In this document: positions 2,963 to 21,266 of the stretch, piece after piece
Layout: each line of letters starts with the position of its first letter
How positions within the stretch are numbered: the stretch's first letter is position 1
Source of the DNA: a virus
Length of the DNA stretch: 21,266 nt
Virus record (IMG/VR): IMGVR_UViG_3300029309_000141
Coordinates: 12,115-33,380 of that record
Direction: 5' to 3' (one strand)
Translations under genes and position numbers: made by a program
Notes under the pieces: model-generated
Databases searched by the model: none
What the model was told of the DNA's origin: nothing
What the model saw: the letters and a program-made list of their open reading frames with translations, nothing else

Positions 2963-2984
2963 TAAAGTAATTAAAAAGTTATAG

Positions 2985-3016
2985 AGCTGAGGGAGGAAAC
3001 TCCCTTGGCTTTTTTT
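2985..3016 (+). terminator. intrinsic terminator with GAAA tetraloop
   Basis: An 11-bp stem (2985-2995 with 3000-3010, two G-T wobbles) closes a GAAA tetraloop at 2996-2999. A run of seven T (3010-3016) follows directly. It lies 22 nt after the stop of the gene at 2528-2962 and should end its transcript. Confidence 0.85.
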
Positions 3017-13153: not shown

Positions 13154-13590
13154 GTTTTTTTGGCGATATAATGGGAGGCAGAGCTGCACAAGCTGGAGCT
13201 AATTACAATGCGTCTTTAATTGAAAGAGATGCAAAAATAAAAGAGATGCAAGCCGACCAGGCTTACAAAGTTTATACTACTTACGATTTACCAAAATTTA
13301 ATCATCAAGCAGATCAGCTAGAGGGTACAATAAGAACTTCTTACGCTACATCTGGTGCAGAAATATCTGGTTCAGCTTTAGATGTTTTGTTTGAAAATTC
13401 TCTTAACATGGAAAGAGATAGAGATATGTTAAAATACAATGCAGAAGTAGCAAGAGATCAAACTTACAATGACGCTATTAATGCAAGAGCGGAGGCAGCT
13501 ATTGAAAGATTTAGAGGCAAGGTAGCTAAGAAAGCATCTTATTATGCAGCGGGTCAAAGTTTATTATCAACAGCTGCAATGTTTAGTTAG
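13150..13590 (+). CDS. internal virion protein, T7 gp14-like
   Basis: This is a 146-residue protein at the gp14 position. FFGDIMGGRAAQAGANYNA (residues 3-21) begins it, an Ala-rich amphipathic helix follows, then TSYATSGAEISGSALDVLFE at 63-82 (the ATSGVxxxGSxxDVL-type motif of this family), MLKYNAEVARDQ at 93-104, and a small-residue segment SYYAAGQSLLSTAAMF at the end. In T7, gp14 is ejected first and forms a pore in the outer membrane; the same is inferred here. It starts with ATGA overlap and is followed by the gp15-like gene after 7 nt. Confidence 0.78.
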   Translation: MSFFGDIMGGRAAQAGANYNASLIERDAKIKEMQADQAYKVYTTYDLPKFNHQADQLEGTIRTSYATSGAEISGSALDVLFENSLNMERDRDMLKYNAEVARDQTYNDAINARAEAAIERFRGKVAKKASYYAAGQSLLSTAAMFS

Positions 13591-13597
13591 GAGAAAT

Positions 13598-15796
13598 ATG
13601 GCTATAAAAATTTATCAATCACAAGTAAGACCCACAGAAGAAATAACTCAAACTACTTCAACATCTGGAATGAAGATAGATAGAGCTACGATGACAGCTA
13701 TACCAAATGCTTTTAAAGGCATGATGCAAGCTGGAGAAGAGCTTTATGTAAAATATGAAAAACAAAAAGCTGAGAATGCGGTTATTGAGGCAAGTAAAAA
13801 TATTGATAAAGACGATATAACTGAAAATATACATGGTGCTAAAATTACTAACAAAGAGGGATTAGCAACAAGAGTTAATAAATACAAAGAAAGCACAAAG
13901 CCAGATGAGGCTATGGCTGCTTACAAAGCAGATTGGCAAAAAACTTTAGATACAACACTCTTAAATCTCAAGGGACCATTCGCTAAAAAAATGTTCAAAA
14001 ATTATATGAACAAAAGATTTATTTCTGAGAGTGGAACAATCAGAGATAATACTTTTGTTAATTTTAGAAATGAAAGTAGATCTTTAAAATTAAAAGATTT
14101 AGATGCTATAAGTTATAAAATTGCTAATTCTCAAGTAGGATCAAGAGAATATGAAATGGCAGTTGCAGATAAAAATGCTTTTTTTGCTAATCAAAGTAAT
14201 ATTGATTTGTTTGGCGATAAATTTAAACAATTAGAATTTGATACCGCAAACAACATAGATGTTTTAACAATTACAAATCATCTAAGCAAAGATCCAATAC
14301 AAACTAAAAATAATTTTGATGCTGGAGTTTATAAAGGTTTAGATGCAGAAACAAAGATTAGAATAGGCAACAAAATAACTTTAGCTGCGCAACAAAAGGC
14401 TTTGGGTAATATTGAAAGCGATAGTGTAAGAGTATCTAATGGTTTGGCTCCAGAGCATGACAGCTCAGAGTATTTAAAAATTTTTGAGGGTTATGAGAAC
14501 TACGATGAAGTTAAAACCGCAATTGAGGTTCAAAGTTTTGTTTTTAAATCTATAAGACAAGTGCATGATGGCAAACAAGAAGATTTATCAACAATCAAAT
14601 TATATGAACTAACTGGATCTGGAGATGAAATTAAAGCAAAGACAGCAGCTAATGCTATTATTCAAAAAGCAATAACTGAAAGACAAACTGATATAAACAA
14701 TAATGATATTGTTGGATATATTAATAAAACAAATCCAGAGATAAATGCTCTTGAACAAAAAATATTAAGCACAACAGATATAGAAAAGAAAAAAGAATTA
14801 GTTGCAGAAAAAAAATTATTATTAGACCAAAAATTTATTGATTTAAACATACCTAAAAGCAAACAATTTTATATTAGTAATTCAGAAATAAAAGCAAGTG
14901 TTGCAACAATAACTTCATCTGACAAAACTTGGCAAGAGAAAAAAGCTACATTGTTAAGTCTTGGAGAAGTTTATGGCAAAGAACACATGCCACAAATCCT
15001 AAAACAAATGACGGATCAAAATTTACCAACCGCTTATGCAATTGCTATGAGTACCAATAGCGCAAAATTAAATGAAGATATTTTGCAAGGCTACAACATG
15101 AAAGATTTAGAAAAGGTTGCTTTAGCAGAATTACCAAAAAATATTTCTAAAAAAGATATAAACAGAAAAATATCAGAAAAAATTAATGACTTTGAAACAG
15201 TTATTGAAAGTCAACAATCTGGTTCTTTTGATGACATTGCATATAAAGCTCAACTGCAAGATACATTATATAGAGCTGTGCTTGTAAGAATAGACAGAGG
15301 AGATAATTATAATGATGCAATAAATTCTGTTACAAAAGAATTTTTATCTGATTATACAATAGCTCCAAGTAAAACATTTTTTGTTCCAGCTGATATTAAT
15401 GGAAAAAGAGTAAGTCAAATACAAGTATTCACTAAAACAGAGGCTATAGAATTAGCAGTAGAAGATAAACAAGGAACATACCTAGATGAATTTATGGGTA
15501 AAGATGGATATGCTCATTATGCAAGTAATACAGAAGTTAAAGGTTTATCTGGTTCAGATATTAAAATGAGAATTAAATCAGCAATGCAAAATGATAGTAA
15601 ATTTTTATTAAACGATACTTCAACGGGTGTTGTTTTACATTTTACTTGGTATGACGGGACTATGGTTCCAGTTGTAAATGCTAAAGGAGAAAAAGTAGAA
15701 TTTAGTTTTTTAGATACAAAATATGTATTCCCTGGAACTAATAAAGAAATGGTACTTGTAGAAGATTACGATCCATTTGCGGAGCCAGCTGCATAA
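13598..15796 (+). CDS. internal virion protein, T7 gp15-like
   Basis: This is a 732-residue protein, close to T7 gp15 (about 750 residues), and lies between the gp14- and gp16-like genes. I chose the ATG at 13598 because TAGGAG (13588-13593) sits 4 nt upstream; a frame extension to 13544 would overlap the previous gene and has no ribosome binding site. The body is charged, helical and without membrane segments. In T7, gp15 lines a tube in the ejection complex that carries DNA across the periplasm. The assignment rests on position, size and composition, since I see no diagnostic motif. It ends as TAATG with the next gene. Confidence 0.65.
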   Translation: MAIKIYQSQVRPTEEITQTTSTSGMKIDRATMTAIPNAFKGMMQAGEELYVKYEKQKAENAVIEASKNIDKDDITENIHGAKITNKEGLATRVNKYKESTKPDEAMAAYKADWQKTLDTTLLNLKGPFAKKMFKNYMNKRFISESGTIRDNTFVNFRNESRSLKLKDLDAISYKIANSQVGSREYEMAVADKNAFFANQSNIDLFGDKFKQLEFDTANNIDVLTITNHLSKDPIQTKNNFDAGVYKGLDAETKIRIGNKITLAAQQKALGNIESDSVRVSNGLAPEHDSSEYLKIFEGYENYDEVKTAIEVQSFVFKSIRQVHDGKQEDLSTIKLYELTGSGDEIKAKTAANAIIQKAITERQTDINNNDIVGYINKTNPEINALEQKILSTTDIEKKKELVAEKKLLLDQKFIDLNIPKSKQFYISNSEIKASVATITSSDKTWQEKKATLLSLGEVYGKEHMPQILKQMTDQNLPTAYAIAMSTNSAKLNEDILQGYNMKDLEKVALAELPKNISKKDINRKISEKINDFETVIESQQSGSFDDIAYKAQLQDTLYRAVLVRIDRGDNYNDAINSVTKEFLSDYTIAPSKTFFVPADINGKRVSQIQVFTKTEAIELAVEDKQGTYLDEFMGKDGYAHYASNTEVKGLSGSDIKMRIKSAMQNDSKFLLNDTSTGVVLHFTWYDGTMVPVVNAKGEKVEFSFLDTKYVFPGTNKEMVLVEDYDPFAEPAA

Positions 15797-19574: not shown

Positions 19575-19601
19575 ATAGACAGAATTGACAAATTAATCTA
19601 A
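19575..19601 (+). repeat. 27-nt near-repeat, copy B
   Basis: It matches 1540-1566 at 24 of 27 positions. It is in frame with the gp16-like gene, 6 nt past its stop, and would read IDRIDKLI then TAA, but has no start codon of its own. It contains TTGACA (19585-19590) and its final TAA begins the T7-like promoter motif. Confidence 0.6.
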
Positions 19602-19643
19602 TACGAAAAATATAGTAGGATTATAACGCCTACAAAAATTTTT
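19585..19643 (+). promoter_or_regulatory. tail fibre promoter candidate with 5' hairpin
   Basis: TAATACGA-AAAA-TATAG at 19599-19615 matches the two conserved halves of the T7 RNA polymerase promoter (TAATACGA-CTCAC-TATAG) with a spacer one base shorter. If G19615 were the first transcribed base, the RNA would begin with GTAGG, able to pair with CCTAC at 19629-19633, then A5T5 (19634-19643). A sigma70 reading is TTGACA (19585-19590) and TATAGT (19611-19616), but the 20-bp spacing is too long. Both readings point to transcription start near 19615-19625. Confidence 0.5.
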
Positions 19644-19668: not shown

Positions 19669-21266
19669 ATGACAGTATCGAGTTTATCGGTAAAAAATTC
19701 TTATAATGCGGATAATACTACTACAAGTTTTGCCTACACTTTTCCTATTCATAGTGTAAATGAGCTTACAGTAATATTAAGAGCAGCAAACGGAACAGAA
19801 ACAATACAAACTATTACTACCCATTATTCTATTGTAGATAATGGATCAGCTGGTGGACAAGTAAATTTTGTATCAGCTCCAGCTACGGGTAATACAGTTG
19901 TCTTGTTAAGAGATACAAACTTAACACAAGAAACAGATTACATTGCTAATGATCCTTTTCCAGCTGAAACCCATGAGGCAGCTCTTGATAAAATTACTTT
20001 ACAACAACAAGAGCTACAAGAAGAATTAGATAGAGCAATTAAAATTTCAAGATCAAATGATATTGCATCATCTGAGATTGCACAAACTGCAGCCACAAGA
20101 GCTGGAAAATTATTAGCTTTTGATAGCAGCGGAAATTTAGAGGTAAGCCTAGATGCAAGCTCAATAGCAACTAATGCTACAGCTGCAGCTAATTCAGCTA
20201 CAGCAGCGGCAGCATCTCAAACTGCAGCAGAAACTGCTAAGACAGCAGCAGAAACTGCAAAAACTGCAGCGGAAAATTTATTAGATAATTTTGATGATAG
20301 ATTTTTAGGAGCTAAAACTTCAGATCCATCTGTTGATAATGATGGCGATGCTCTTGTAGATGGTGCGTTGTATTTTGATACCACAAATAATGTCATGAAA
20401 GTTTATGACTTATCTGGTACAGCTTGGAGACAAATTCAATTATCAACATCAGATCAAGCAAATGTAAATTTAGTTGCGGGTCAAATATCTCCAACAAATA
20501 ATATTTCTACAGTTGCCGCACAAAATACAAACATTACAACTTTAGCTGGATTAAATTCTGAAATAACTACTTTAGCTGGGATCTCTGGATTATCTAATTT
20601 AGCAAATAATTCTGCAGCTGTGACGAATGTAAATAATAATTTATCTTCTGTTCAAAATTTTGCAAATGTTTATAGAATAGCATCATCAGCTCCTACAAGC
20701 TCACTTGATGTTGGAGATCTATATTTTGATACTACTGCTAATGAATTAAAAGTTTATAAGTCTAGTGGTTGGTCTGCAGCTGGTTCTACTATTAATGGTA
20801 CTTCTGCAAGATTTAATTATACAGCTACAGCTGGTCAAACTACATTTAGTGGCTCGGATACAGCTGGAAATAATTTAGCTTATGATGCGGGATTTGCGGA
20901 TGTATATCTAAATGGCGTTAGGTTATCTGCAGCAGATGTTAATATTTCATCTGGAAATTCTGTAGTGCTTGCAAGTGGTGCAGCTGCAGGAGATATTTTA
21001 GATGTTGTTGGTTATGGAACATTTAATGTTGCATCTATAAATGCTGCAAATATTTCTAGTGGTACAATTAATAATAATCGATTACCATCTCCAACTTTAA
21101 TTGTAAAAGGAGATGGCTCAAGTATTGATGGAGCAATACAATTAAATTGCCATGTAAATACTCACGGAGTTAAAATTCAAGCACCTCCTCATTCTGCTGG
21201 AGCTACATATACTTTAACTTTACCAAATAATACTGGATCTAATGGTCAAGTTTTATCTACTAATGG
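19669..21266 (+). CDS. tail fibre protein (5' part, runs off the window)
   Basis: This is an open frame of 532 complete codons without a stop. Residues 1-130 fit the tail-attachment head of T7-type fibres: SYNADNTTTSFAYTFPIHSV at 11-30, then LLRDTNLTQETDYI at 79-92, FPAETHEAALDKITLQQQEL at 97-116. An Ala-rich repeat helix (168-203, with KTAAETAKTAAE) follows. Two GxLYFDTTxNxxKVY modules lie at 232-246 and 349-363, then an ADVYLNGVRLSAAD module (410-423), and NCHVNTHGVKIQAPPHSAGA (493-512), a beta block common in marine phage fibres. The receptor-binding tip lies beyond the window. No strong Shine-Dalgarno precedes the ATG; a GAAAGAG stretch lies about 10 nt upstream. Confidence 0.88.
   Translation, partial: MTVSSLSVKNSYNADNTTTSFAYTFPIHSVNELTVILRAANGTETIQTITTHYSIVDNGSAGGQVNFVSAPATGNTVVLLRDTNLTQETDYIANDPFPAETHEAALDKITLQQQELQEELDRAIKISRSNDIASSEIAQTAATRAGKLLAFDSSGNLEVSLDASSIATNATAAANSATAAAASQTAAETAKTAAETAKTAAENLLDNFDDRFLGAKTSDPSVDNDGDALVDGALYFDTTNNVMKVYDLSGTAWRQIQLSTSDQANVNLVAGQISPTNNISTVAAQNTNITTLAGLNSEITTLAGISGLSNLANNSAAVTNVNNNLSSVQNFANVYRIASSAPTSSLDVGDLYFDTTANELKVYKSSGWSAAGSTINGTSARFNYTATAGQTTFSGSDTAGNNLAYDAGFADVYLNGVRLSAADVNISSGNSVVLASGAAAGDILDVVGYGTFNVASINAANISSGTINNNRLPSPTLIVKGDGSSIDGAIQLNCHVNTHGVKIQAPPHSAGATYTLTLPNNTGSNGQVLSTN

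Follow-up and report, generated by a model that had tools for sequence, protein, structure and literature searches.

Q-type late promoters are known, and the Q families are mutually dissimilar in sequence. In phage lambda, the late promoter pR′ is followed by the terminator tR′, and its last hexamer (AACGAT) presumably begins at +1. In the lambda sequence (NC_001416), pR′ reads TTGACT-17-TAAATT-6-AACGAT. The Q protein of phage 21 is sigma-region-4-like and binds a 6-bp direct repeat, and the paused bubble in that phage spans +3 to +15 and has the open-complex form (PMC6606751). From this, the -10-like hexamer of phage 21 would lie at about +2, a distance of 36 bases from a -35 with ideal spacing. 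Phages of SAR11 bacteria rank with the most abundant marine phages. For the SAR11 phage Skadi, no phage polymerase and few sigma-70-type promoters near the replication genes were described (PMC10504331). Here, two copies of one element in a related phage are read, with a probability of about 0.6, as two Q-type late promoters for the host polymerase, one serving the late genes (site A) and one the tail fibre (site B), with the DUF6362 protein as the candidate antiterminator.

The window, which is the whole stretch of 21,266 nucleotides that was analyzed, corresponds to bases 12115–33380 of an IMG/VR record of 34.7 kb (G000), and sites A and B, with the genes and the terminator-like hairpin described next to them, lie on its + strand. 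Because runs of 10 N abut the window on both sides (L001:12105–12114 and L002:382–391), the record is a scaffold that may be missing bases at the ends of the window. The internal virion protein encoded in the record was 59% identical to that of Skadi and ~30% identical to those of other pelagiphages, and the record is therefore that of a pelagiphage-like podovirus; its host, judged from these sequences, is probably of SAR11 type. An integrase and repressor-like proteins are also encoded. A 750-amino acid ORF located amid the virion protein genes (13544–15796) was without a PHROG match and without a convincing Pfam match.

Site B (19576–19633) lies in a gap of 100 bases between the end of a virion protein gene (19568) and the ATG of the tail-fibre gene (19669–21266, continuing beyond the window end), and this gap very probably holds a promoter. 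The site consists of the -35-like hexamer TAGACA (19576–19581), a second repeat TTGACA (19585–19590) that begins nine bases after the first and is a candidate half-site for a Q-like factor, a candidate weak -10 TAATAC (19599–19604), a -10-like hexamer TATAGT (19611–19616) with a predicted start at ~19611, and a stem-loop GTAGG-N9-CCTAC (19615–19633) close to where the RNA is predicted to begin. The hexamers are arranged as TAGACA-17-TAnnnn-6-TAnnnT, with TAnnnT 35 bases away in sites A and B of many phages.

Relatives of site B were collected by exact and degenerate scans of IMG/VR and from a sample of the gaps that precede 80 related tail-fibre genes, which were picked by protein alone. One element was found in the relatives (TAGACA, 3 bases, T(T/A)GACA-like, 8 bases, TA...., 6 bases, TA...T, TAGG-N8/9-CCTA), beginning 7–10 bases past the stop codon of the upstream gene. 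The C-terminal sequences of the upstream genes vary between groups and the leaders vary too, with site B retained. Among 25 distinct versions, TAGACA was present in 24 and T(T/A)GAC at the second repeat in 18, with looser forms in the others. With positions numbered from 0 at the first T, TA was found at 23 in 25/25, the remaining letters of that hexamer being variable, and the hexamer at 35 was TATAGT, TAGTGT, TAGGGT or TATGCT; the search pattern for these versions included GACA and TAnnnT but not the TA at 23. In a neighboring clade (L075, L106, L119), TTGACATATTTGACC-N20-TATAAT occupies the equivalent position. The element was absent from the short gaps or overlaps of HTVC035P, HTVC100P, HTVC203P and Greip, and a blastn comparison of the site-B gap with named phages gave no matches. 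In Skadi-3 (L009:21057–21097), the sole strict match sits before the tail fibre, and its last hexamer extends into the ATG. A bacterial origin of the conserved 21-mer was rejected, as zero exact matches were obtained among genome contigs.

When whole records were searched for GACA-N5-GAC-N21-TAnnnT, the tail-fibre site was recovered together with, in several records, a second site ~18 kb away. In the record studied here, the strict pattern T(T/A)GACA-17-TA-10-TAnnnT had exactly two matches, site A and site B; under a Markov null the expectation was 0.11 matches per genome, and at least two arose in 1 of 200 simulations. Site A (1541–1581), 18 kb upstream of site B, is composed of TAGACA (1541–1546), a repeat TAGACA (1550–1555), TAAGGA (1564–1569) and TAGGGT (1576–1581). 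It overlaps the last codons of the DUF6362 ORF (1159–1566) and precedes the packaging and structural genes, with the Sf6-type terminase small subunit gene (1823–2269) early among them and the large subunit next. In a 69.7-kb IMG/VR record (G002; L006 and L086), two differing tail-fibre sites B and one site A were found, perhaps because two phages were fused during assembly or because the genome is an odd one.

Since the repeat at site A is coding, specifying (I/L/V)D(R/K)ID(N/K)LI-stop, part of its conservation is at the protein level. For a coding test, 80 loci were retrieved by protein homology and reduced to 35 distinct sites. The first Asp codon, within TAGACA, was GAC in 35/35 versions, compared with 22 of 240 Asp codons elsewhere in the same genes, and the residue preceding that Asp was spelled xTA in 33 of the 35. 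TA was present at +23 in every version, even where the stop codon falls one codon later. TAnnnT lay at 35 (31 versions) or 36 (4 versions) in 35/35, as eight different hexamers, and at any other offset in at most 6. Given the relatedness of the versions, these counts cannot be treated as independent, but the hexamers, the letters of the spacer and the encoded residues do differ from one version to another. Site A in these relatives has, as their codons and spacing indicate, been under selection at the nucleotide level. Its range of 35–36 covers both the lambda (35) and the phage 21 (36) distances.

A slightly relaxed pattern recovered pR′ in the lambda stretch, which served as the positive control. 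The pR′-type layout (-35, 17 bp, -10, and a -10-like hexamer ~12–13 bases after the -10) was found in two exact matches in the record, with the -10 itself weak, and the distance from the -35 to the -10-like hexamer is 35 in lambda pR′ and in sites A and B alike. The first half of the spacer repeat coincides with the -35 itself. DUF6362 stands before the packaging genes as lambda Q stands before pR′, which supports the reading as Q-type late promoters; this order of regulator and then late genes was found at site A (DUF6362, terS/terL), while only the tail fibre follows site B. Against this reading, the proposed -10 never ends in the usual T in the site A and site B versions. A plain sigma-70 promoter with 16–18 bp spacing was also considered and rejected: a consensus scan omitted site B, and match counts equaled the shuffled level.

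As Q-type late promoters, the two sites would be used as follows. Host RNA polymerase would start at ~1576 and ~19611, directed by the -35 TAGACA and, 17 bp on, the weak -10 TAnnnn, so that the second -10-like hexamer TAnnnT, a further 6 bp on, would form the very start of the transcript. The polymerase would be kept there in a pause by sigma bound to TAnnnT. The -35-like repeat lies in the spacer, where Q-type antiterminators bind, and would be the binding place of DUF6362, which would load on the paused polymerase and permit its passage through terminators into the packaging and structural genes (site A) and the tail-fibre genes (site B).

The DUF6362 gene, whose 3′ end overlaps site A, was assigned by a match to PF19889 (E 1.4e-12; 48.2 bits against a Pfam gathering cut-off of 31). 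An AlphaFold model built from 13 homologues had a pLDDT of 81.8, and a Foldseek search of the PDB with this model returned no significant match. When candidates were realigned using VIA-align, sigma region 4 (Z 7.7) and phage 21 Q (6p1c; Z 7.2, 121 residues) were both among the best, and the other 21 Q structures (6jny, 6p1b, 6p19 and 6p18) were lower than 6p1c. For helical proteins, Z below 8 may reflect just a common arrangement. Because Z was below 8, the match between the DUF6362 model and 21 Q is taken as a lead, consistent with where the gene lies, and does not prove membership of the family. No sequence link between DUF6362 and 21 Q was obtained by phmmer or by a profile search of PDB chains, and no relatives of DUF6362 were confirmed in bacterial genomes. 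Skadi has a strict site match and DUF6362 was not found there, which counts against the Q-type reading. In HTVC028P, the end of the DUF6362 gene reads GACA-N5-GACA and TATCCT stands at +35, but AG takes the place of TA at +23, and a downstream hairpin and T-run seen by eye were not confirmed by the terminator scan; this phage lends weak support. That DUF6362 is an unrecognized Q-like antiterminator family with its late promoter inside its own last codons, and that the second copy before the receptor-binding tail fibre gives the host-range genes their own antiterminated transcript, is put forward tentatively, with chances a little short of even.

The site-B hairpin had a predicted energy of -6.1 kcal/mol over 60 nt (z = -2.0). 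It is weak in the window, where the T tract starts five bases past the stem. Across relatives the retained stem is TAGG/CCTA, with a variable loop and little covariation; in L042 and L076, Ts lie close behind the stem or the stem is longer. At site A of L226, L228, L229, L231, L237, L246 and L249, a GGATA/TATCC-like stem with changing letters is located 3′ of TAnnnT, so that a hairpin close to the predicted RNA start may be general. The terminator scan detected a strong intrinsic-terminator-like hairpin with a T tract 3′ of site A (2983–3012) and no strong terminator directly after site B in this genome, the latter counting against the Q-type reading. A strong intrinsic terminator was seen between the predicted promoter of site B and the ATG of the tail fibre in L106, L119 and L081, and in the gap before the tail fibre in L124, L127 and L135, an arrangement parallel to tR′ behind pR′ and as if tail-fibre expression in these six relatives were dependent on antitermination. 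Terminators are the least secure part of the pR′-type model.

In the preliminary description, the gap before the tail fibre had been read as holding a T7-like promoter motif with a predicted RNA start at 19615. The letters were confirmed by direct reading, as TAATACGA (19599–19606), AAAA (19607–19610) and TATAG (19611–19615), as was the GTAGG (19615–19619)/CCTAC (19629–19633) stem inside the intergenic gap, and the T7 promoter phi17 also directly precedes a tail-fibre gene. The exact 17-mer TAATACGA-N4-TATAG occurs once in the window, and no further copy, at up to one mismatch, was found in the 34.7-kb record; base composition predicts 0.004 exact chance matches per window and 0.007 per record, but since both the pattern and the 4-base gap were picked post hoc, these values do not give a fair P value. 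The genuine T7 consensus, with a 5-base gap, had zero matches within 3 mismatches in the window. PF00940 searches for a single-subunit RNA polymerase gene gave none in the record, a scaffold that may miss a few bases, or in 22 related records, the element being present in 21 of them; the T7 positive control was detected at 9.9e-110. Phage RNA polymerase was likewise absent according to the authors of the Skadi study (PMC10504331). The motif was intact in only 5/25 distinct site-B versions: TAATACGA is replaced in relatives by TATAGAGA, TAATAGGA, TAAAGAGA and others, and TATAG forms the first letters of the hexamer TATAGT, which relatives spell TAGTGT, TAGGGT or TATGCT and the neighboring clade TATAAT. 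With no polymerase, the wrong gap length, one copy and this lack of conservation, transcription by a phage polymerase of the T7 class is largely refuted and now scarcely credible, and the resemblance is, as far as the sequence tells, an accident of an AT-rich stretch. What stands of the preliminary description is that a promoter very probably lies just ahead of the tail-fibre gene and that its RNA would begin with a stem-loop, and the host promoter that it named as an alternative is the reading now favored.

The main rival shares the host polymerase with the Q-type reading and differs in taking TAnnnT as the true -10. TATAGT (19611–19616) and TAGGGT (1576–1581) would then belong to activator-dependent host promoters with starts ~12 bases on, near 19623 and 1588, and the T(T/A)GAC repeats would bind a phage activator that offsets a poor, over-long 20-bp spacing from the -35. 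TAnnnT does contain all three key -10 letters in 35/35 site-A versions, and a perfect TATAAT hexamer occurs in L075, L106, L119 and two site-A versions; this account is nevertheless judged unlikely, as it gives no reason why TA at +23 is invariant or why the spacing of 17 + 6 is exactly that of lambda. Sites A and B are also direct repeats on either side of the structural module, and B persists although its neighbors differ, so that both could be a repeated boundary sequence, without promoter function, for exchange of the structural module or the tail fibre. Such a role does not predict the fixed TAnnnT spacing across eight hexamers or the GAC codon selection at A, and the similarity of A and B within a genome was barely above that across genomes (p = 0.054, from which no co-variation is claimed); it is considered improbable. 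An RNA element on a read-through transcript, with the conserved part of B being a 5′ stem-loop, a processing site or a weak terminator, would fit the kept TAGG/CCTA stem with its varying loop, the z of -2.0 and the Ts closely behind the stem in some relatives. It is very improbable, given that the elements upstream of the hairpin would be unexplained, that site A of the window is without such a hairpin and that covariation is slight.

The Q-type reading bears on how late genes are switched on in SAR11 phages without their own RNA polymerase, a question made testable by a promoter layout and a named candidate factor. If true, it would assign a role to DUF6362, a functionally uncharacterized Pfam domain. 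It also cautions that, in AT-rich phages, what looks like a T7 promoter can be part of a host-type promoter. In the literature collection searched, no paper describing antitermination in pelagiphages was found. Nor was there an earlier report of four features that appear to be new: the link to DUF6362, a promoter overlapping its regulator gene, the additional copy ahead of the tail fibre and the occurrence in pelagiphage-like viruses.

Compared with the described systems, the locus shares with T7 phi17 the TAATACGA and TATAG letters, the place before a tail-fibre gene and a hairpin near the 5′ end, and differs from it in having no detected phage polymerase, the wrong gap, a single copy and recognition letters that are not conserved. 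AlpA of Pseudomonas and the GafZ protein of the Caulobacter GTA act at host-polymerase promoters with the factor site between the -35 and -10 and terminators behind (PMC7969949, PMC11150451); the layout proposed here is alike. With phage 21 Q, the common features are a small protein with a sigma-region-4-like helix-turn-helix, for DUF6362 a prediction, and a -10-like hexamer preceded by a short direct repeat (PMC6606751), whereas the period is 9 here and 8 bp there, the letters are others, sequence similarity is not detectable and the fold match is weak. The exact phage 21 spacing was rejected, as the second half-site is 22 bases from the -10-like hexamer here and ~14 in phage 21 (calculated). 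The likeness of DUF6362 to lambda Q is one of gene position. The site differs from pR′ in overlapping the end of the regulator gene, in having a second copy before the tail fibre and in a -10 without the last T, and the two have in common the regulator gene directly upstream, the late genes downstream and an identical -35/17/-10/6/-10-like spacing.
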